Below are positions 2,708-35,881 of a stretch of DNA of 64,000 bases, piece by piece. The DNA is taken from positions 1-64,000 of IMG/VR virus record IMGVR_UViG_3300010885_055964, one strand, 5' to 3'. The notes under the pieces were generated by a model. That model was not told the DNA's origin. It made no database searches and was given only the letters and a program-made list of their open reading frames with translations. Position 1 is the first letter of the stretch; each line of letters opens with the position of its first letter. This stretch comes from a virus. The translations under genes were made by a program, and so were the position numbers.

Positions 2708-3049
2708 TTATGGCGTTTTGTATGGTCTTTTATCGCCGTTCGGATATTTGGATAGGATTAGACTGTTCACATTTTCTAATTGTCTTTCTAAATTCATCTT
2801 TGACAATGTCATAGCTTGATACTCGGTTACGAATTCACTCTCTGTAAACAGTAATTCACCCCCATGTACATATGATCTTCTATCACCGTATAAACTAGCG
2901 CTGACAGCACCTGCAACACCAGCGTATACAGAGTATACCCATTCTAGTCCCCTCTTGGATATACCGCTTATTCTTACTGGCTCGAGAAACCCTAATGCAG
3001 CTGATTCCCTTAGATACACTATATCATTAATTTCGTATACGGGCTTCAT
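2708..3049 (-). CDS. Conserved hypothetical phage protein, SH3-like N-terminus
   Basis: 113 residues. The first ~70 residues have the pattern Y-x-I-x-D-I-V-Y-L-R-E-S-A-A-x-G-F-L-E, followed by a WVYSVY strand, which looks like a small beta-barrel seen in uncharacterised phage proteins. The last 35 residues are helical. It ends about 80 bases upstream of the polymerase start and may share its transcript. Function unknown. Confidence 0.7.
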   Translation of the reverse strand: MKPVYEINDIVYLRESAALGFLEPVRISGISKRGLEWVYSVYAGVAGAVSASLYGDRRSYVHGGELLFTESEFVTEYQAMTLSKMNLERQLENVNSLILSKYPNGDKRPYKTP

Positions 3050-3059
3050 AGTAGTCTCC

Positions 3060-10894: not shown

Positions 10895-11032
10895 TTTTTA
10901 TCTCCTTATTAGGATGCATAACATTTTTTTAATACTTCGTACTCTTCGATTGTGTCATAATCATCTGTCATAGCTCTTGATATGGGTTATTTCTGGACAT
11001 CAATGATTCGATTCTGCGTATTTAAATCAGAT

Positions 11033-20492: not shown

Positions 20493-23400
20493 TTACCAAC
20501 ATTGGTCTGGCTTAGTGGGATCACAATCCGGCCAGTTAAAGCGATTAGGCAAGATCTCGTTCGAGCGTATATGAGCAAGTATCCTATTGATACTACTCGT
20601 ATCGTTTATTTGTTTATGAATCAAGACTATTCTCATTTTTGTAGATGTTACCGTGCTAAAATCAGTCTCAAATATCTCAGCCCCATCCCGTAAATATGGA
20701 ACATATTCATTAGGTCTGAGTCCCTTAGACGCAGCTAATTGTTTTATCGTCCTGTTATTACTCGGGTCGAATAGATCTCTTTCGATCTTGATTCTCGTAG
20801 AAACATTTAGTATGTCTGGTATCGAATCTGGACCACAACAAGGCTCTAGTACAACTGGTGCATCTCCTGGTTCAGGGTGGCACAACAGGGGGCCATTATC
20901 ATAATCGTACTGTTGTCCGTTGTCACATGTCGGCAAAGGATATAAATATGGTGGTGATAATACTTTCTGTAATGCTGATGGGTCGCATATGAGAGTCTGC
21001 TCAAACACTGGTTCTACTATAGGCACGTTACCGAATTTGCTTTTAAACTCAATTAAATAACGATAATTCTGTTCCGATAGTGTCCTCGAACGCTCAGCGA
21101 TTGTTACGTCTCCTACGACGAAAGGAGGTAATGCGGTAATGATCTGCTGTAACGCTTCTGTCGACACGTTCCAAGGTATAGCAGGTGTCTGGTAGGTATT
21201 GGGCCCGACTGTTATCTTCAATGTGTAAGTGCCTCTATTGGCACGTGATACAGTTAATAATTGCTGCTCTCTGATACCGTTGCCCTGCTCTAATACTCGT
21301 ACAGTCGCGGTGCCGCCTTTAAGTTGGATGCCATTTAGCTGCGTCAACGGAATATTCTGTCTTACATATTGACCTTTGAACTCTAATTTATATGTATAAA
21401 TTCCGTTGTTGGCATCTCTAATGACGCTGGTTACCGATAAATCATTAGCTGTTAACCATGGTATTACCGTAACTATGGCTGTCTTCAATTGGGAAGGTGT
21501 CGCATTGAAAACTATACTATTGGTATTGTATGTGATTGGACTGGTAGCTGGACTGGTAAATGAAAGCTCATATGTACCATCTTTAGCATTTACTGTCACT
21601 AACTGCTGCTCATTCACGCCACCGCCCACACCTCCATTCCAGTCGGTAATAATCGTATAGTCAGGTTGTGGTTGTATTGTCATCTCACCCACGTTTTGCC
21701 TGCTATAGTCTCCGATGAATGATAACCTATATGGTCCTCGGTAGACAGCATCGCGGTCACTTATGTCCCCATCTACCCTTAGGTTACCTGAACCTATATT
21801 AGACATACCAGTCAATATGCTGGTTATCTGATTCAATGAGGCGTTGTGTTGTATGTTCTGACTGGTTATACCGCCAAATGTTACAGTAAAGTTGCTTGTG
21901 CTTTGATTTGTATTGGTGATAGTCTTCTGTTCATTAGTAGTGCCGTCTACGATTTTGCTCACGAATGAGTCTGAAGTGCCTAATAACCTTGACACATCTA
22001 CGATAATGGTGTTCTGGTTAATTGATCCTAATTCGTTAATGAATTCTATTACATAAGGGTCGAGTGCGGTACCCTCACCAGTCACTAATATATTATTACG
22101 ACCACCAGTGATAGATAGGCTACCGAATCTATTCCTTACGACGCTTGCAGTAGCACCGTACTCTATTAACACCGATTGTGTCTGGCCTGCATTTCTCCAC
22201 CTTAGTTCCCACTGACCACTAACTGCATTCGGTAGTGTGATAGATTGCTTCTCATTAACACTTAAACCATCTACTACCAAATCGATTTTCACATTAGCAC
22301 TACAAGGATCGTATACTACTCCTTTGCCGGTTATAGTTAATCGATTCAAAGACAGGTCACCGTTGCCTTCTGGCTTATTACAAGCAAATGTAGTAATATT
22401 GGCTGGGTTACCATTAATAACACCATTGCCAGACGCATCAGCCATTACTTGAGCAGGTGCATCATCGCTCTGTGTTGCATATTCCCAATAACCCGGATTG
22501 TCGCCATTATAGTAAGCTGCCTTGTACCATTCAGCTTCTGTAGGTAGATGGTACTTAGCATTTTCATTAGGTTCTACGACATTAGTGCCTTGCAAATGAT
22601 ATGCTCCGTCCTCTGTGGTGGTTAGATCCTGTTGACCACTGGGCTGGCCATTATGTAACCAATTGCAATATCTAGCGCTTGCAAACCAATCTACATAGAC
22701 TACAGGTTTGTCATCCATATCCTCAATTATATCATACGTATAGTTGCCCTGTGTCCCACTCCTGGTTATTCCTCCATAAGTTGGCGACCCAGCTGGTCGA
22801 CCCATTCTTATGTCATACAATCCATATGTGTCTGTCTTAGCGATACTATTTAGAAAGACTACATAATCACAGTTGGTTACAGCGAATTTGGCGATATGGT
22901 AAGGATATGATACGGCACCAACACCTGACGAGTCATTCTGATTGTCAATATCTTCTACGCTTACCATTTGTGGTAAGTCGAATGGATTTGGACTTTCGTA
23001 ACGACTGGCTATTCTAAATCCTATATTGTATTTCTTGTCTGATGCAGTTAGCGTATCTTTATATCTCTTAAATAATGATTCTGGCGTGCTTACATTAGCA
23101 CCTCTGACACTGCTTTTGTCTGTATCACTCGCTTGTGCGGTGATCCCAGCGTCATCGCTCATACCATTCTTTAAGCTGAAGCTAGTTAACGTAATCGATG
23201 CGCCTATATAATGGCTTATTCCATTGCCTGCACATATCTTTATATTACTGTCAATGTCGACTATTTTAGTCAATGGTAATGAACTGAATCTTTGTCCACC
23301 CCAAAACCATACTTGGCCATTTCTTATACCCAAAGAATGAGCATATCCAGCACTTATCTTAGTCCATCCGGTAGAACTCGCAGGAGGGCGTACTTGAGAA

Positions 23401-25571
23401 GGATAATTCCTGGATATCCAATTATTGATACCATCGGCATTAACACCATCGAGTTGCCCATAAATGTTATTTCCCCATGACCATGCATCACCTCCAATAC
23501 TTAATGCCAGGGAATGTTTTGTACCAGCAGCTACTTCGAACCAATTTTGTGTGCCGGATATTAATACTGGAGAATTTCTATCTACGTAAGTGTTATCGCC
23601 TAGTTGGCCAAGATAATTACTACCCCAAGACCACAATGTTTTATCGGACTTGATCGCCAATGTATGGCACGGAAAACCTTCCTGGGAAGCAGAATAATTA
23701 CCATAAGCATTACTAGCTGAAATAGATATCCAAATACTCGAGCTAATTTGAGTTGGCACTAACTTATCCGCATTAGTACCATCTCCTAATTGGCCGAAAC
23801 GATTATACCCCCAAGCCCATAATGTCCCGTCAGATCTGATAGCTAACGAATAACCATAACCAGCACTAATGCTTTTCCACGTGTCTGTGCCGATTTGGGA
23901 AGGTAAAGAACCATTGTTAGTAGTTCCGTTTCCTAATTGTCCGTATCTGTTATCTCCCCAAGTCCAAAGAGTACCATTCGATTTAATAGCTAAATAATGA
24001 TCTTCGCTAGATGATATGTTAGCCCAGTCCGTATCTGTCCCCACTTGCACAATAGGGTAAGATTTGGATAACCCAAGGTATCTCGACCCCCAAAGAGAAC
24101 CGTCACTTTTTATCCCAATATCCGACGAAATTTCTATCCATGTGTCTAGTCCTATCCGCACTGGATTCGGTCGTTCACTGCTGCTGGTTGGTGGTGGGAG
24201 ATCTATATCCGGCTGATACCCCCATCCCCATAGTGCACCGGATGGAATCGGCGGAGGTGGTGGTGGTGGTGGTGGTGGTGGTGGTGGTGGTGGTGGTGGT
24301 GGTGGTGGCGGCGGCGGCGGAGGTGGCGGCGGCGGCGGAGGTGGCGGCGGCGGAGGTGGCGATGTAACTGTAACCGAAGCTGTATTGCTTAATAATGTTA
24401 TATTGGCAGATTGTGTATCCATTACTATGAATACGCGTACTAACCACCCATCGACATATGATGGGACATTTATTAGGTCAAAGTAAAACCTGTTCGTATA
24501 CGGAGCTATAGTACCTGGAGTATCCCAAGTTATACCTCCATCTCTGCTAACAGTCCAATTGTATATTAGGGCGGAACCATTAGATGCATTCGCTGACACA
24601 GAAAAACTAGCAGTGCCACCAACCGATATTGTCTGATTCTGTGGCTGTTGCGTTATAATTATACTTGGAGCCTGAGGGGCAGTTACAGTCAGAACAGCGG
24701 AATTACTTATAACCTCGCTTACTACTCCCAGCGAGTTTACAACTGTAACAACTACGCGTATCAAGCTTATCCTGGGGTAAGGACGGATAAATGATGATGT
24801 CGGTAACGTTAATTTAATACCGAACTTACCTACATAACTTCCCAAACTTACCCAATTAATTCCATCATCATAGCTGATTTGCCAATTGGATGTTATCGTA
24901 ACATCATCAAATGTAGCGTTAGATATGTTGATAGCTATGCTAAAAGTAGCATCAAGACCAACAGTTACCGTCTGGTTCTGTGGCTGCTGAGAGATACTGA
25001 TAATGGTGGGAAGTGGCGGTGGAATAATAGTTTCACACCATTCGGATACGTTCCCATCCTGATCACATGTTCCATAATAACTAGGGCCACCGTTACTTCC
25101 CACAGTGGTCAAATTACCTATCGTAGAGCCATTCCATTGAGCAACACCATTGTAATTAGCGCTATTGCTTTGACTCACATTACCTAAATCTACTCGTACA
25201 GCTAATAGTGATTCACGACTAACAGCTATATCATTAATAATGGCCTTGCGTAATGTATCATTAGTTAGCTGTGAAGCGGTAATGTCGTAGTTATGTGACG
25301 CATATTTAATATCATATTTCACACCTGGTATGACGGATTGCTTGGCTACCAGCTCAGGCTCCGGGGATACAGTTCGAAGTAGCTGGTTAGTGCAATCAAC
25401 GCCGAAGGCCACTCGCCTCAGAGATGTCTGCACATCAGGAGTATTGTTCCTGATAGCTGGTGCTACCTCGCACTCTTTTGCCCACACTAACTCGACAAAT
25501 GTGGGTTGACCTATTTCGGTCGACCCATCGTTATCTGGTTTGGCTATACCATCAAAAGGATCTGTAGCCAC
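20493..25571 (-). CDS. Giant multidomain fibre/adhesin with RCC1 propeller and permuted FGE-like domain
   Basis: 1,692 residues; GTG start at 25571 with GAGGT upstream. Order: residues 1-137 unassigned; 138-182 a middle piece of a formylglycine-generating-enzyme-like (C-type-lectin-fold) domain (YYGTCDQDGNVSEW); 185-400 two Ig-like domains each starting with QPQNQT; 404-441 a run of 37 prolines; ~445-790 RCC1-type repeats (WGDNRYGQLGNGT, AIRSDGTLWAWG); ~835-865 the end piece of the FGE domain (YNIGFRIAS); 868-1060 its beginning (MVSVED...TDTYGLYDIRMG...EDGAYHL...PTEAEWYKAAYY...YWEYATQSD). Then ~500 residues of repeats of the NEQQLVTVN...GTYELSF type, and a Cys-containing C-terminal domain. 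No signal peptide. Most likely a tail fibre or host-attachment protein. Confidence 0.8.
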   Translation of the reverse strand: MATDPFDGIAKPDNDGSTEIGQPTFVELVWAKECEVAPAIRNNTPDVQTSLRRVAFGVDCTNQLLRTVSPEPELVAKQSVIPGVKYDIKYASHNYDITASQLTNDTLRKAIINDIAVSRESLLAVRVDLGNVSQSNSANYNGVAQWNGSTIGNLTTVGSNGGPSYYGTCDQDGNVSEWCETIIPPPLPTIISISQQPQNQTVTVGLDATFSIAINISNATFDDVTITSNWQISYDDGINWVSLGSYVGKFGIKLTLPTSSFIRPYPRISLIRVVVTVVNSLGVVSEVISNSAVLTVTAPQAPSIIITQQPQNQTISVGGTASFSVSANASNGSALIYNWTVSRDGGITWDTPGTIAPYTNRFYFDLINVPSYVDGWLVRVFIVMDTQSANITLLSNTASVTVTSPPPPPPPPPPPPPPPPPPPPPPPPPPPPPPPPPPPPPIPSGALWGWGYQPDIDLPPPTSSSERPNPVRIGLDTWIEISSDIGIKSDGSLWGSRYLGLSKSYPIVQVGTDTDWANISSSEDHYLAIKSNGTLWTWGDNRYGQLGNGTTNNGSLPSQIGTDTWKSISAGYGYSLAIRSDGTLWAWGYNRFGQLGDGTNADKLVPTQISSSIWISISASNAYGNYSASQEGFPCHTLAIKSDKTLWSWGSNYLGQLGDNTYVDRNSPVLISGTQNWFEVAAGTKHSLALSIGGDAWSWGNNIYGQLDGVNADGINNWISRNYPSQVRPPASSTGWTKISAGYAHSLGIRNGQVWFWGGQRFSSLPLTKIVDIDSNIKICAGNGISHYIGASITLTSFSLKNGMSDDAGITAQASDTDKSSVRGANVSTPESLFKRYKDTLTASDKKYNIGFRIASRYESPNPFDLPQMVSVEDIDNQNDSSGVGAVSYPYHIAKFAVTNCDYVVFLNSIAKTDTYGLYDIRMGRPAGSPTYGGITRSGTQGNYTYDIIEDMDDKPVVYVDWFASARYCNWLHNGQPSGQQDLTTTEDGAYHLQGTNVVEPNENAKYHLPTEAEWYKAAYYNGDNPGYWEYATQSDDAPAQVMADASGNGVINGNPANITTFACNKPEGNGDLSLNRLTITGKGVVYDPCSANVKIDLVVDGLSVNEKQSITLPNAVSGQWELRWRNAGQTQSVLIEYGATASVVRNRFGSLSITGGRNNILVTGEGTALDPYVIEFINELGSINQNTIIVDVSRLLGTSDSFVSKIVDGTTNEQKTITNTNQSTSNFTVTFGGITSQNIQHNASLNQITSILTGMSNIGSGNLRVDGDISDRDAVYRGPYRLSFIGDYSRQNVGEMTIQPQPDYTIITDWNGGVGGGVNEQQLVTVNAKDGTYELSFTSPATSPITYNTNSIVFNATPSQLKTAIVTVIPWLTANDLSVTSVIRDANNGIYTYKLEFKGQYVRQNIPLTQLNGIQLKGGTATVRVLEQGNGIREQQLLTVSRANRGTYTLKITVGPNTYQTPAIPWNVSTEALQQIITALPPFVVGDVTIAERSRTLSEQNYRYLIEFKSKFGNVPIVEPVFEQTLICDPSALQKVLSPPYLYPLPTCDNGQQYDYDNGPLLCHPEPGDAPVVLEPCCGPDSIPDILNVSTRIKIERDLFDPSNNRTIKQLAASKGLRPNEYVPYLRDGAEIFETDFSTVTSTKMRIVLIHKQINDTSSINRILAHIRSNEILPNRFNWPDCDPTKPDQCW
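24249..24359. repeat. GGT/GGC microsatellite encoding 37 prolines
   Basis: A 111-base trinucleotide tract, mostly GGT in its first half and GGC/GGA in the second on the plus strand, read on the minus strand as 37 consecutive Pro codons (CCA, CCG, CCT). It separates the Ig-like domains from the RCC1 propeller in the fibre and probably forms a stiff polyproline rod. Its length may vary by slippage. Confidence 0.95.
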
Positions 25572-28167: not shown

Positions 28168-28603
28168 TCGCTGATTCCTCTCTTGGAGGTGAGAGCATAT
28201 CATCTATAATCTGATGAGCAGATGTAGCAGTAATCGTATATTGATATTTTATTTCATGCCTGACGATTCTAGTTAGTATACCAAATCGTGGCATTGGGAT
28301 CTTTAATGGTAGATTATTTGAAACTACTTCATCTTCGGCAGCAGCGTGGAACCACCATCTGAGTGCTTGAGCTGATGCATAACTATATAAGCCGCAGTTT
28401 ATCATTTGACCAGAGCTATCATAACAACCCGGATTAGGCACACCCTTATCACCGCGTGAAAATTCTAACTTAACCCATTTATCTCCGATCATATTACCAT
28501 TAACTAAAGTAGGCCCATGCGGAGAACGTGCCTCGACAGTATATCCTATTTTGGTGCCGGATCCATTACTTCGATCTGCTTTGTAATCATCTTCTAAATT
28601 CAT
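28130..28603 (-). CDS. Hypothetical protein
   Basis: 157 residues, AGGAGCG upstream of the ATG. Gly/Asn-rich N-terminal half; LYSYASAQALRWWFHAAAE is a distinctive helix, followed by beta strands (HEIKYQYTITATS). Its end overlaps the TIM-barrel gene and its start overlaps the PurZ-like stop, so all three are coupled. Not recognised. Confidence 0.55.
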   Translation of the reverse strand: MNLEDDYKADRSNGSGTKIGYTVEARSPHGPTLVNGNMIGDKWVKLEFSRGDKGVPNPGCYDSSGQMINCGLYSYASAQALRWWFHAAAEDEVVSNNLPLKIPMPRFGILTRIVRHEIKYQYTITATSAHQIIDDMLSPPREESANEPRDKWVYSAK

Positions 28604-29877
28604 TGCTCGCTCCTAAACGCAGTGTCGCGAAAGCAAACATGATTGTTTTGCGGGCCGGTACCGACAATAGTAACAGGAATCTGTGCTACATCCTCGACTC
28701 GCTTAATGAACTGCTTCACCTTGGTCGGAAGTCCATCGAAATCATTTGTTCCATAGCATGACCAATCAATATAGTTTGCGAAGTTGAGTGCTATCTGAGT
28801 GGCACCATTAATCGTTACAGCGTCACGTAGCTGTTCATCCGAGAAGGTGAATACTCTACGTAATCTTTTGGTTACAGTCGTTAGTTCTTTGTCGGCCAAC
28901 GTTGGAGGTGCACCAGCTTGTTCAGCAACTTCTTTCCAACTGATTTCCTTCTGTCCTTCATAAACACCACCAGAGTGACCGACTACTACACCATCTTCAA
29001 CCACGTTACCAACTCGGATTGGGTATGGCCTGATGACCAAATACACATCTCCCATACGCTTGGCTGACAGACCCATATCAGCTAAGTTCTGTACAGCTGT
29101 GGTTCCTCTACTGGTGCACTGAGGGTAATGAGAACCGTGATTAATATCTAACGAAAACCCTTGTGATCCTTCATGCAGAATAGTAAAGCCATCACTCAAC
29201 AACATATCCAAAGACACAGCTATATTCCAGGGCCAAATGTAATTATTATATCCTCCAGCAACCACATACTTTGCTAATTCGGGGCAATCTCTAGCCAATA
29301 TCAGCCCGACCCGACGCATAACTTTATCTGCAAGAAACGCACCACATCCTTGCATCGTACTAGCTATATGCTTTGTACCATCAGTTGAGTTATTTTCTCT
29401 GATTCTTTGTTCATCAGTTATTACTCCTGCTCTTTCGTGAATCCAGATCTTGTTTTCAAGATTGCATTCCTGTATCTCTTGTAACAGCCTTTCAAGGTGA
29501 AATGCGGCTGTTGCGCCTATATAGATTAATGGTCTGTAAGGAATTGGGATGTTGTTATTCACAGCATTCACAGCTTCATCAACTGAATCACAAGGTATTG
29601 GATCAGTAGCGTTATGACTTCCCTCCCTCCACCCGGTCAATCTAGGCTTGACTACCCAAGGCTGAGCAGCCCATTTATTAATAGCCGCACACGATGGAAC
29701 TGCCTTAGCAACAAATGCATCACCTAGATTATTGACTGCGGTATGGCCGGCATTAGCCATGTTAGTGGTTGATATGATTTGTGGTTGATAGCGGTACGCC
29801 AAAGCAGTAGAAATCAAGCCTTTACCGCAAGAACCCCATTGTCCGTCTGTCACAACATTAAACTTTTGCTTCTGCAT
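28600..29877 (-). CDS. purZ: Adenylosuccinate synthetase homolog, PurZ-like
   Basis: 425 residues, the normal PurA/PurZ length; GGAG upstream of the ATG. The GTP loop reads DGQWGSCGKG (residues 11-20): where PurA has the catalytic Asp of GxQWGDEGKGK, this protein has Ser16. NAGHT (42-46) with the catalytic His is kept, as are HEGSQGFSLDINHG and the later CTSRGTTA. Replacing that Asp by Ser is the published hallmark of PurZ, which condenses dGMP with Asp on the way to dZMP (2-aminoadenine). The symbol is therefore tentative. No DatZ or MazZ homolog is evident in this window, so a full Z-genome pathway is not shown. Confidence 0.72.
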   Translation of the reverse strand: MQKQKFNVVTDGQWGSCGKGLISTALAYRYQPQIISTTNMANAGHTAVNNLGDAFVAKAVPSCAAINKWAAQPWVVKPRLTGWREGSHNATDPIPCDSVDEAVNAVNNNIPIPYRPLIYIGATAAFHLERLLQEIQECNLENKIWIHERAGVITDEQRIRENNSTDGTKHIASTMQGCGAFLADKVMRRVGLILARDCPELAKYVVAGGYNNYIWPWNIAVSLDMLLSDGFTILHEGSQGFSLDINHGSHYPQCTSRGTTAVQNLADMGLSAKRMGDVYLVIRPYPIRVGNVVEDGVVVGHSGGVYEGQKEISWKEVAEQAGAPPTLADKELTTVTKRLRRVFTFSDEQLRDAVTINGATQIALNFANYIDWSCYGTNDFDGLPTKVKQFIKRVEDVAQIPVTIVGTGPQNNHVCFRDTAFRSEQ

Positions 29878-31799: not shown

Positions 31800-33479
31800 T
31801 CATGGAGAAGGGTCCACAGGCCCAGGAGGAGGTGGCTGAGAAGTGTTATCGCTGCAAGGAGGATCCTGAACATTCGGGCACCAGAAAAAAGGCTCCTGAC
31901 AGCATTCATCAGCTGGTGGTGCTTTAGGTCTCTGTATCCTCCAAGGATATTTAGAGGCCCTGACACCATTAGGGCCGAACCATCTGCCCTTTTCCGCACA
32001 AGGTCCAATTGCCGTAGCAGGAATCCAATTAAATTTGTGCCTATTGAAATTTCTCTTCTTCACACAGCCTGGTTGAGGTTCCCAGTTTGGTAACTCGAGT
32101 TCAGGCACTTCTTCTTGTTGTAGATCTATTCGATAAGATGTGATCTTCTTACATTCGTCCAAAGTCGTTTCTAAAGCTACAAATGTGCTTGTAAAGGCTG
32201 GTGCGTCTGATATTATATCAGCATTTGGAGATATGTTTATAAAACGAGCACATATACTTGTGATCAAATCAGAACACAATGTATAAATCACATCATCTTC
32301 ACAATCTAACCGCACATTGATTATGGGGCAATCAGCTCTGATGCTTTCAGTATCTATCTCGCAATTAACTAGTCTTATCTTACAATCGCCAGGATCACCA
32401 CTTACACCATCAGGCCCTTTTTGCCTTGATTTAATGCCCACTCCTGCCACAAACAATTTATCCCACGAACTGCCTACTGGCAAATAGATAGACCCGCACA
32501 CTATATTAGTATTTCGATCATATTTGATAGATTTTAAGGTATTGTCTAATGACAGTTTATCACTGGGTACGTCAGATCTGAAGCTAACTGTTACTTTATT
32601 AGGTTCAATAGGATCTATTTCGACTATAACCACAGGTTCTAGCTGTGTGGTGACTTCACCATTCATGACCTTACTTAATTTGATCCCACATAAACTAGAA
32701 ACAGATGGCTTAACGCCCATGCTCTGTTGTTGGTAAGCCCATCTAGTTTTCGTAAAATCCTGATATAACTCTGGCCTGCTATCCTTTAAAGGTGCCAAAG
32801 TAGCTTCTAAATAAGCTAATTGCAAAGATTCATTCGATTTCTGGGCAGAGATAGTAGATTTAGGAGGATCAATAGCGTAAACTCTAACAGATATTTCAGG
32901 CACATGATCATTAGGGAGAGGAACAGGTCCTCCTAGTTTTAAGGGAGTAGGGGTAAATATGGCAAAATCTAATCGATTAGTGTTTATGGTGCTAGGGCTA
33001 TAATAAGGTTCAGGCACTGCATGCCTGCCAGAAGGTCCACGATCTCCAGGATCACCTTGAGGACCCCTGGGGCCAGGACACTTATTTTTAAGCAATATTT
33101 GGTAGATTCTTGCTTTATCGACTTCAATCCTGAGCTGATTTTCGCCTTCGGCTTTGAATTTAATCAGTTTATCACTGGACTTAAAATAATACCAATAAGC
33201 ATCACTACCAGGTAATATCTTTAAAGGACGTAGATCAGGATTATTTTTAGTAAAAGCTTCGAGTTTTAATAATTGGTCATAGATATTAGGAGTAATAATA
33301 CCATCTTTATTTTCACTAACTGTATCAGGTAGAGCAATAGTACCTCTACTAATCCAAGCATCTTGACCGGCGTCATATTGATAACGATTGCCATAAGAAT
33401 CACATATTTCGTCACCATGATTAGCTGATAGGGGAAGGTTATCTATTTTACCAGATTTGCAAAAAGGTTGATTTGACAT
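31800..33479 (-). CDS. Collagen-like fibre protein
   Basis: 559 residues; GAGG upstream. Short collagen-like stretches GPRGPQGDPGDRGPSG (~residue 135-150) and KGPDGVSGDPGD (~355-367) separate beta-rich domains; many Cys in the C-terminal half (CEDDVIYTLCSDLITSICARF), and a Cys/Pro-rich end (CCQEPFFWCPNVQDPPCSD) finishing in PPPPGPVDP. The N-terminus begins with SGKIDNLPLSANHGDEICDSYG. This architecture fits a trimeric tail or head fibre. It follows the large structured non-coding stretch in the same direction. Confidence 0.7.
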   Translation of the reverse strand: MSNQPFCKSGKIDNLPLSANHGDEICDSYGNRYQYDAGQDAWISRGTIALPDTVSENKDGIITPNIYDQLLKLEAFTKNNPDLRPLKILPGSDAYWYYFKSSDKLIKFKAEGENQLRIEVDKARIYQILLKNKCPGPRGPQGDPGDRGPSGRHAVPEPYYSPSTINTNRLDFAIFTPTPLKLGGPVPLPNDHVPEISVRVYAIDPPKSTISAQKSNESLQLAYLEATLAPLKDSRPELYQDFTKTRWAYQQQSMGVKPSVSSLCGIKLSKVMNGEVTTQLEPVVIVEIDPIEPNKVTVSFRSDVPSDKLSLDNTLKSIKYDRNTNIVCGSIYLPVGSSWDKLFVAGVGIKSRQKGPDGVSGDPGDCKIRLVNCEIDTESIRADCPIINVRLDCEDDVIYTLCSDLITSICARFINISPNADIISDAPAFTSTFVALETTLDECKKITSYRIDLQQEEVPELELPNWEPQPGCVKKRNFNRHKFNWIPATAIGPCAEKGRWFGPNGVRASKYPWRIQRPKAPPADECCQEPFFWCPNVQDPPCSDNTSQPPPPGPVDPSP

Positions 33480-33550
33480 AATAACCTCATTATATATTTA
33501 ATTACAATATAATCAGTCGAAAGAAGACAATCAGATAGTCATAATATATG

Positions 33551-34150
33551 GAAAAGGCTTCCCCGTACTAGTTAAAAACCAAAAATCTGATGAACTTTTT
33601 TGGTTTTAATAAGTCGAGACAGGAACTTACTTATAGTTCCTCTTTAACTCCGACACAAGCACCAACTTTGCCTTTTTGGGGAAGTTTCGTTGGTCGAAGT
33701 GTCGTGTCCTTCTCCTGCCCGTGTCACATTCTGCCAAGAATGTCGAACACTCTATCAGTTTCGGTGCCTCAGGAGATTCGAGTTATTTAGATTCTGTCTA
33801 TTACTGTCAGTCCTTACAATCGTACCTTGGCTTTACATGCTAAGAGCTTTGATGCTGGTACTCATGTCGCAAAACTGATAGACCCCAGGTGGAATCTAAA
33901 CTCGTGACTAATCAACAATTTGACCTGAAGCCTATTGCTTCTCTAGTGTCGGGTGATACTTTTAATCTACAACCTCTTGTTGTAATAGCTATGACAGGTG
34001 GCCCATTACGAAACCCGTTCTATTGCTAGAACAAGAACACCCTAAAGAACCTATCATAACCCATTGACAGTCACGATACCAACCTAACAGCAAACAGAGC
34101 TGTTATAAATGACTTGATTGTCATAACGATACTGGGATATCGTTAAAAAC
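33551..34150 (-). ncRNA. Candidate large structured non-coding RNA (~600 nt)
   Basis: This stretch lacks any ORF of note and is packed with perfect hairpins. Perfect pairings: 34125-34131/34138-34144; 34109-34113/34120-34124; 34085-34091/34099-34105; 34017-34022/34027-34032 (loop GCAA on the minus strand, a GNRA tetraloop); 33968-33973/33979-33984; 33927-33931/33937-33941; 33726-33731/33738-33743 extended by 33721-33724/33747-33750; 33651-33656/33699-33704 enclosing 33661-33666/33689-33694; 33621-33627/33635-33641. Long-range: 33779-33794/33892-33904 (13 bp, one bulge), 33990-33999/34049-34058 (one mismatch) and 33558-33564/33678-33684, a possible pseudoknot. The GNRA loop and both flanking genes point to the minus strand. 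Size and ornate folding recall the phage-borne GOLLD and ROOL RNAs; membership is not shown. Confidence 0.75.
33574..33607 (-). terminator. Terminator-like hairpin at the 3' side of the ncRNA
   Basis: On the minus strand AAAACCAAAAA (33607-33597) pairs perfectly with TTTTTGGTTTT (33585-33575) across an 11-base loop, and one more T follows. The stem is AT-rich with only two G-C pairs, so it would be a weak intrinsic terminator. It also works on the plus strand. Confidence 0.35.
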
Positions 34151-34167
34151 TCAAATACTTGTAAGAT

Positions 34168-34683
34168 TCACAGTTCTATATAATCTACTTTTGATAACAT
34201 TTCCAAATATTCTTCTGGTATGTTTCTATCATTATTGGTGCTAAATCTCATTAATATACCGTCTTCTTCTCCGAATAAATATTTAGCTATCCCTATAGCC
34301 TTGAACTCATTCTTTTTGAGTAACATGAGCATGGGTAATTTTGTTTCGTTGACCCAAGCATCAATACTACTATTATATATATTATTTAAATCAGTTCGGA
34401 ACATATCTGCTATTAGATATGTTGCTATCTTTTTTCTTCTTTTCTTGGGGTTAACTGTTAGATTAATTATTTGATAATATTTTTCATTCACACTGTAGAA
34501 ATTATATGCTTCAACTTTGTTATTAACTTCAGCTACTTTTGAACTTACATTTTCGTCAAAGAATAGATTAGTTAATGTGTCTATATCCCATGGATGTTGA
34601 TACGATTTGTTTTCTAAATCTAACACTCTATCCACATCAGTATCTACCATCTGCCTCACCGATATATCAATTTTAGCTACCAT
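34168..34683 (-). CDS. GNAT family N-acetyltransferase
   Basis: 171 residues with a strong AGGAGG upstream. VRQMVDTDVDRVLDLE is the N-terminal GNAT strand-helix; LTVNPKKRRKKIATYLIADM matches motif A with the R-x-x-x-I-A acetyl-CoA loop (a less glycine-rich variant), and MLLLKKNEFKAIGI motif B. It resembles RimI-type enzymes. The substrate may be a protein N-terminus. Its stop codon lies 18 bases before the non-coding RNA begins, so the RNA may be processed from a shared transcript. Confidence 0.7.
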   Translation of the reverse strand: MVAKIDISVRQMVDTDVDRVLDLENKSYQHPWDIDTLTNLFFDENVSSKVAEVNNKVEAYNFYSVNEKYYQIINLTVNPKKRRKKIATYLIADMFRTDLNNIYNSSIDAWVNETKLPMLMLLKKNEFKAIGIAKYLFGEEDGILMRFSTNNDRNIPEEYLEMLSKVDYIEL

Positions 34684-34765: not shown

Positions 34766-35881
34766 TCATACTTCTTCGGTTGATTCCAAAGAATATATCT
34801 CGTCACCTTCATGTACCACTTCAGAGTTACACCTTGTTAGGATTGCTATATCTAAATCTTTGATATTATTACTGTCATCTCTTATCCATGCAGCGAACAT
34901 ATCATTGTTAGTAGTTGGTATATGAGATTGCTTATCCGATTCTTTAGATATTTTTACCTGCTTATTGTATAAATCCATCCATCTAACACTATTAGCCCCT
35001 AGAGCTAATATTCTTGTTTTTAAATCATTCTTTTCATTAGGAGTATATTCTCTTTGTAATGCGATTCTTACTATACAATTTTGGATATCTTGTTGTGTTT
35101 TATTATCTATTTCTGTGTCTAATATGGTTGTGAACTGTGGAGGAGCAGTTAGTTCTGGGAAGAATTTTTCACCAGCTCTCCATATATTAATGAATTTATG
35201 TGTGTCTGCCTCTGTATCGTAAACATAGAATCCATGTGGTACGTCCCCCTCATCGAATTTAAAAGGAATTGGGGAACCTGGATACCATACATTATCTCCT
35301 ATCTGTTGCTTACTATGGAAATGTCCAGTATAAATCCTATGAAATGGCATACCTTCGAAAGATACTATAGACCAATCTTTGATCAAGAAACAGGTATTAA
35401 GTGTAGCGCTGCGAACTCCAATATGTGTGAGTAGATTATCTGTAGGTAAAAATGATGGATGCTTGATGATCGATTTAATAACTTTCATATATGTCTTTTC
35501 GTACGTTATGAATGGCACTATCCAAAATCTGGTACCTTGTATTTCTAAGATGCATATGTCTTCTATTACAGTTAGATGTTTACGTAATGGCGAAAGGCTA
35601 TTGATTTCCCAAGAATGTCTTAAGAACATATCATGGTTACCAGGAAACACGACCCATTGTTGATTATATTGTTCTTTGGTTTGCTCGAAGAAAGCACAGA
35701 CCTTGGAATTGATATCTATTTCTATCGATTGTCTATTATGATATAGGTCACCTAGAACTATGATGGTATCTATGCCAAAAACTCGGCAATATTCTCTGAT
35801 TACTCGGCAAGCCCACAATATATCATCTGTACGGCCAGGCACACCAAAATGAATATCTGCTGTGATACATATCTTTGCCAT
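34766..35881 (-). CDS. sbcD: SbcD/Mre11-like nuclease (gp47-type)
   Basis: 371 residues; GAGGAG upstream. ITADIHFG (D-x-H), VLGDLYHNR (GD-x-x-H), FPGNHD (GNHD), THIGV and YTGHFHSKQ (GHxH) give the full metallophosphoesterase set of Mre11/SbcD. YPGSPIPFKFDEGD matches the capping region. With SbcC encoded at 40003 it forms the double-strand end processing complex used in phage recombination-dependent replication. Confidence 0.9.
   Translation of the reverse strand: MAKICITADIHFGVPGRTDDILWACRVIREYCRVFGIDTIIVLGDLYHNRQSIEIDINSKVCAFFEQTKEQYNQQWVVFPGNHDMFLRHSWEINSLSPLRKHLTVIEDICILEIQGTRFWIVPFITYEKTYMKVIKSIIKHPSFLPTDNLLTHIGVRSATLNTCFLIKDWSIVSFEGMPFHRIYTGHFHSKQQIGDNVWYPGSPIPFKFDEGDVPHGFYVYDTEADTHKFINIWRAGEKFFPELTAPPQFTTILDTEIDNKTQQDIQNCIVRIALQREYTPNEKNDLKTRILALGANSVRWMDLYNKQVKISKESDKQSHIPTTNNDMFAAWIRDDSNNIKDLDIAILTRCNSEVVHEGDEIYSLESTEEV

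Follow-up and report, generated by a model that had tools for sequence, protein, structure and literature searches.

Few structured non-coding RNAs as large as about 600 nt are known (GOLLD, ROOL, OLE, HEARO and raiA) and, to our knowledge, what the large ones of phages do is not known. The window analysed here (a stretch of 64,000 nt) belongs to a 178-kb virus record of a contractile-tailed phage (a tail sheath gene was found). In this window, a gap of about 690 bases separates the stop of a GNAT acetyltransferase gene (34168) from the start of a fibre-like protein gene (33479), which raises the question of whether the gap encodes such an RNA and, if so, of which kind. The initial annotation had read it as a large ornate structured RNA, a member or a relative of GOLLD or ROOL.

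We found that the gap contains a conserved, structured, non-coding RNA on the minus strand, which lies outside Rfam 15 and is new. Compensatory change keeps its fold, in which a strongly conserved 3' core containing a pseudoknot is combined with a 5' domain and a linker that both vary, and with one or more long-range pairings of a loop. As an explanation of the whole, we favour, with moderate confidence, an independent gene for a non-coding RNA of about 600 nt, of a new class, which would act as an RNA body of the GOLLD/ROOL kind.

Coding status, strand and homologues

The minus strand of the GNAT-fibre gap has no ORF of at least 50 aa, the only ORFs being small ones on the plus (antisense) strand, and no reading frame is open throughout the homologues. 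The lack of coding signal noted initially was thus borne out, and no conserved frame emerged in the relatives. Neither ARAGORN nor Rfam called the RNA as a tRNA or tmRNA; with no matches and no open frame, a tRNA or tmRNA, an Rfam family and a coding gene were all rejected as its identity.

The minus strand of 33529-34163 has a minimum free energy of -187.5 kcal/mol (z -4.0 against shuffles; z -4.5 in a separate shuffle test of the RNA region). Sixteen random stretches of the same genome, used as a control, gave z values of -1.8 to +1.1, and no comparable excess stability was found in the other large gaps of the genome (z -2.4 to +1.0). After GC correction, positions 33900-34200 form the top over-stable 300-nt segment of the minus strand in the whole 178-kb genome. 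The plus strand of the same region also exceeds its shuffles (z -4.7), so that folding energy alone cannot assign the strand. Better folding of both strands is what would be seen if the region were palindrome-rich DNA (e.g. an origin) or a decayed gene, and not an RNA. However, in the homologue alignment read as the minus strand, G-U cells outnumber A-C cells by 86 to 18; this excess places the RNA on the minus strand and refutes the reading as DNA palindromes or a decayed gene. The compensatory changes and crossing long-range pairings described below also oppose that reading, to which we give next to no credence.

Thirteen further contigs of large phages in IMG/VR (L015, L016, L019, L172, L173, L190, L193, L197, L198, L199, L203, L204 and L233) were found to carry homologues of the RNA, which makes 14 phages with the window; 11 sequences, including that of the window, are full-length. 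The copies in L203 and L204 are close relatives, and L205 is identical to L203 at the RNA site. Across these contigs the RNA is conserved in shape, not in sequence. A blastn search of 50,697 phage records with the window sequence alone gave chance matches only, as did searches with two homologues as queries. Proteins served as baits in IMG/VR, starting with the fibre protein and going on to the SbcD-like product of the upstream gene; both yielded relatives, in which the RNA was located by nucleotide and profile searches. The GNAT protein and the DNA polymerase, used in the same way, gave no useful relatives. The matches of a DNA pattern scan in genome contigs, and most of those in viral contigs, were judged by profile to be due to chance.

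A covariance model of the conserved 3' core (R1; 33644-33787), built from ten sequences, scored 139.7 bits on the core (E 1e-39). The four records held out of R1 scored 53.5 (L198), 46.6 (L203), 45.9 (L204) and 79.5 bits (L233); the last (the record behind L196; E 8e-22) was discovered by the covariance model. As judged by the covariance model, the RNA was absent from the distant fibre relatives L002-L004 and from several SbcD relatives, although the records of both groups may be fragments.

A separate observation concerns a recurring N-terminal peptide, M(N/K)P(K/E)DIA(K/R)(L/M)I(T/S)EDPD, present on otherwise dissimilar short proteins of L002, L003, L004, L015 and L199. It has eight matches within 13 kb of L002, four in L003, five in L199 and none in the window genome, and looks like a common targeting or leader tag.

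A fold kept by compensatory change

In the alignment of the 3' core (A7; 10 sequences, 34 pairs) 97.1% of the cells are paired and 23 of the 34 pairs show compensatory changes. The corresponding values for the full-length alignment (A8; 11 sequences, 82 pairs in 14 helices), which was made without fitting to structure, are 89.1% and 65 of 82. The covariation score of A7 was 0.593, compared with 0.234 for shuffled and at most 0.135 for slid partners; that of A8 was 0.533, compared with 0.253 and at most 0.138. With the partners slid, 36-45% of the A8 cells were paired, against 89% in the real arrangement. The helices were picked on the same alignments that were scored, and the slid control therefore favours them; the strong contrast and the four held-out records answer this point. 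Covariation in homologues, proposed initially as a check, is strong and, together with the ratio of G-U to A-C cells, upholds the reading of the locus as a large ornate structured phage RNA of the minus strand. The region and the helices listed for it by the initial annotation are present in the sequence as described.

The whole RNA gene as aligned (33529-34163; minus strand, as for all features below) is about 595-635 nt long, as judged from the 11 full-length homologues, the covariation and the strand call. The RNA reaches approximately position 34158, beyond the limit of 34150 set initially, given the conserved GUAUUU at 34153-34158. From 5' to 3' it is composed of the GTATTT box, P1, the optional P2, AUAG, P3, P4, P8 and P9 around the linker, and the 3' core.

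In the 5' part, hairpin P1 (34125-34144; 34139-34144 with 34125-34130) shows compensatory change in six of six pairs. Hairpin P2 (34110-34123; UGAC...GUCA) is present in most phages and absent from L015, L016 and L019 in A8. Behind the conserved AUAG lies hairpin P3 (34087-34103; compensatory change in four of five pairs, 94.5% of cells paired). Helix P4 (33987-34061; 34053-34061 with 33987-33996) covaries in eight of its ten pairs, corresponds to the 10-bp helix seen initially at 33990-33999/34049-34058, and encloses variable hairpins. The GCAA loop (34023-34026) to which the initial annotation drew attention is present in the window on a hairpin at 34017-34032, whose stem is kept in the homologues with other loops, such as UUCG (L015) and UUUG (L016).

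Helix P8 (33785-33901; 33896-33901 with 33785-33792), whose conserved strands are UUUAGAUUC/GAAUCUAAA, closes the central domain and the linker and shows compensatory change in all eight pairs. It forms the inner part of the long-range helix proposed at 33779-33794/33892-33904. The outer CGAG/CUCG part of that helix proved to be specific to the window; it overlaps the conserved AACUCGAA motif, which pairs elsewhere (33777-33781 with 33694-33698). Helix P9 (33807-33878; 33875-33878 with 33807-33810; compensatory change in three of four pairs) encircles the variable linker, which is longer in L193, L197 and L233. The linker of L019 contains an insert with a basic ORF of 55 aa (L019:3740-3907), rich in lysine and glutamine. 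In L203 the core follows the SbcD stop by only about 240 nt; this interval retains a P3-like hairpin and a GUAUUA box, and neither P1 nor PK1 (described below) was recognised.

The 3' core is built around helix PA (33711-33776; 33770-33776 with 33711-33717), with compensatory change in seven of seven pairs and 97% of cells paired. PA encloses the small helix PB (33748-33766), with its conserved loop AAACUGAUAGAG, supported by alignment and covariation, and hairpin PC (33726-33743; compensatory change in six of seven pairs). Helix PD (33646-33708; 33699-33703 with 33652-33656 and an outer extension, 33706-33708 with 33646-33648; compensatory change in eight of eight pairs) encloses helix PE (33662-33693; 33689-33693 with 33662-33666), in which 100% of cells are paired and three of five pairs show compensatory change. 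PD and PE are the nested helices recognised initially at 33651-33656/33699-33704 and 33661-33666/33689-33694, and they are kept in the homologues.

Three pairings (H1, PF and PK1) cross others. The pseudoknot H1 (33694-33781; UCGAA at 33777-33781 with UUCGA at 33694-33698) is nearly invariant, with a single compensatory change; in the raw alignment L198 has UCAAA/UUUGA. The long-range helix PF (33558-33684; CUUCCCC at 33678-33684 with GGGGAAG at 33558-33564) connects the PE loop with a strand close to the 3' end and crosses PD and PE. This 7-bp pairing had also been seen initially and is retained here, with compensatory change in three of seven pairs, only 74% of cells paired and an uncertain register.

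The third crossing pairing, PK1, was not among the helices first listed. It joins the loop of P1 (34131-34136) to a strand between P8 and P9 (33884-33889), with compensatory change in six of six pairs and 82% of cells paired. In most phages it is perfect or nearly so with differing letters, e.g. UCUAAC/GUUAGA (L019), UCUGGC/GCCAGA (L173), AUCAGA/UCUGAU (L190) and GUUGGU/ACCAAC (L197), and in L193 the P1 hairpin loop and its distant partner strand have both been lost. PK1 may form within one molecule or between copies, and in the latter case multimers would result. We consider it possible, though only tentatively, that this is a further phage RNA class, unrelated to GOLLD and ROOL, which would form homo-oligomeric RNA-only particles with P1 loops joining the copies via PK1.

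Several stretches of the 3' core are conserved and unpaired (AACUC, AAACUGAUAGAG, GACGRCGG and UAAAAG). These are candidate binding sites, and the RNA might therefore act in trans in host takeover, by binding RNA polymerase, the ribosome or a nuclease of the host. For GOLLD, work cited in PMC12286853 describes ribosome binding in pull-downs. We think such a role unlikely; it would fit the favoured account of an independent GOLLD/ROOL-like RNA body and would not oppose it.

Neighbouring genes and the putative promoter

The genes around the RNA differ between phages. The GNAT acetyltransferase gene (34168-34683, minus strand), its upstream neighbour, occupies this place in the window phage only. 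In most phages an SbcD-like nuclease gene (34766-35881, minus strand, in the window) lies upstream of the RNA and in the same orientation, either adjoining it or a few genes away; in L198 the two are on opposite strands, and in the L233 record they are about 10 kb apart. This constant position after SbcD could indicate a link to recombination and not a free-standing particle. Many GOLLD and ROOL loci are close to tRNA genes; no tRNA was found near the RNA at 12 homologous loci, and the nearest one in the window is 22 kb away.

The fibre-like gene (31800-33479, minus strand), whose product had no match in PHROGs or Pfam, follows the RNA in roughly half of the homologues. In the window, L172, L173, L203 and L204 it comes after the RNA in the same orientation, and less than about 110 nt separate the RNA end from the gene in the window, L173 and L203. 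This arrangement would suit a leader or processing element that acts in cis on the fibre mRNA, setting its translation or stability. However, other genes intervene before the fibre gene in L015, L016 and L019. Small same-strand or opposite-strand genes replace it downstream of the RNA in L190, L193, L197 and L199, and the downstream gene of L198 is not a fibre gene either. A leader would require a constant place directly upstream of the fibre gene, which is not seen among the homologues, and a length of about 600 nt with its own closing helix exceeds a leader's needs. Since the downstream genes differ between phages, we infer that the RNA is an independent transcription unit, and regard a fibre leader as decidedly unlikely.

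A structured RNA beside a fibre gene also resembles diversity-generating retroelements, a lead which would make it the guide or template RNA of such a system, of a retroelement or of a group II intron. Against this, a reverse transcriptase (PF00078) was detected in only one of the 14 records, and neither the window nor the homologues matched a group I or II intron in Rfam. This explanation, a retron RNA included, is largely refuted, and we regard it as extremely improbable.

The favoured independent RNA gene would have a promoter of its own. At its 5' edge the promoter-like GTATTT box (34153-34158, minus strand), invariant in 11 phages, reads GTATTTGA in the window. The sequence GTATTTAA has seven copies in the 178-kb genome, three of them intergenic; one is located 14 nt ahead of the tRNA-Arg at 11032 and another ahead of a tRNA-like sequence at genome position 86878. 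These two placements suggest, weakly, that a box of the GTATTTAA type may be a phage promoter. The tRNA-like sequence itself (L006, about 2878-3050; genome 86878 onwards) seems to contain an insert and is not called by ARAGORN.

Other genes of these phages are also worth recording. The window encodes an adenylosuccinate synthetase-like protein (28600-29877, minus strand) with a match at E 1.5e-57 to phrog_1211, a family labelled 2-aminooxy adenylosuccinate synthetase. The protein is a PurZ-like candidate, and the DNA of the phage may contain modified adenine. A protein of 1692 aa (20493-25571, minus strand), whose translation shows a long polyproline run and RCC1-like repeats, is probably a structural or adhesion protein. 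In L008, the ORFs for the large terminase subunit and for ribonucleotide reductase (L008:13593-16715 and L008:5358-8801) match their families in split stretches with phrog_9666 matches between them, and possibly contain inteins.

Comparison with known large RNAs

When the window was compared with Rfam 15 at E values up to 10, and the homologues at E values up to 1-5, nothing exceeded chance (two chance-level hits for the window; two chance-level eukaryotic hits for the homologues). OLE, HEARO and raiA are likewise large structured bacterial RNAs, and neither the window nor any homologue matched these or the remaining Rfam 15 families. A literature search, which did not extend to preprints and most subscription journals, turned up no account of this RNA.

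The proposed membership of GOLLD or ROOL was not supported: besides the lack of an Rfam match, the models of GOLLD (RF02032) and ROOL (RF03087) were both silent in the 14 phage records. Of these two results, only that for ROOL is backed by a positive control; it is meaningful, because this model detected the RNA of L. salivarius pMP118 (130 bits, E 1e-29). Conversely, neither R1 nor profiles of the new RNA matched the pMP118 ROOL locus. The control RNA is of interest in itself: this abundant Lactobacillus salivarius lncRNA (L237, plasmid pMP118 178263-178805, minus strand) scores as ROOL, whereas a 2017 report describes it as found in this species only (PMC5643018).

These comparisons (the models against 14 phages, R1 and profiles against the ROOL carrier) revealed no relationship in sequence to GOLLD or ROOL. 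The new RNA might still be a true member, so highly diverged that the Rfam models miss it; the same size, the occurrence in phages, the richness in hairpins and the constant 3' and variable 5' parts would agree with this. Set against the negative results above, including those obtained with a ROOL model that works, we consider it very unlikely.

A large unclassified RNA has also been described in the Vibrio phage ICP1, where an abundant lncRNA of about 800 nt lies in a gap without ORFs (PMC7567579). The likeness extends to the large size, the phage origin and the ORF-less gap; as a homologue this RNA was rejected, since R1, at its sensitivity, found nothing in the whole ICP1 record.

By analogy, the new RNA most likely works in the manner of GOLLD and ROOL, i.e. 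as a large RNA that folds by itself and is produced in infection. It would be transcribed alone from a phage promoter (the GTATTT box) during infection, fold unaided into a compact body held by pseudoknots, and act in trans as a stable particle, consisting of the RNA alone or associated with itself or with protein, as GOLLD and ROOL do. Both of these RNAs come from phages or prophages and assemble into homo-oligomers (PMC12286853), and in the known case GOLLD is produced during lytic growth (PMC12286853; PMC7567579, the latter citing Harris and Breaker 2018). As a new class in large uncultivated phages, the RNA provides an independent case on the question of whether phages repeatedly evolve big RNA bodies.

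The new RNA differs from GOLLD in its conserved motifs, in having no tRNA nearby and in giving no covariance-model match. It resembles GOLLD, which has been described with a constant 3' part and a variable 5' part (PMC12286853), in being phage-borne, large and ornate and in having the same two-part organization; this is a resemblance only. From ROOL it is set apart by the mutual silence of the covariance models, R1 failing to recognise the ROOL carrier. It shares with ROOL a length of about 500-600 nt, a multi-helix architecture, a variable linker and a long-range loop-junction covariation, which is represented here by PK1 (six of six pairs). In ROOL, such a loop-junction pairing was first detected as covariation and turned out to be inter-chain (PMC12286853). 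With its defined fold and 14 natural variants, the new RNA bears on whether assembly through loop pairing is a common principle.
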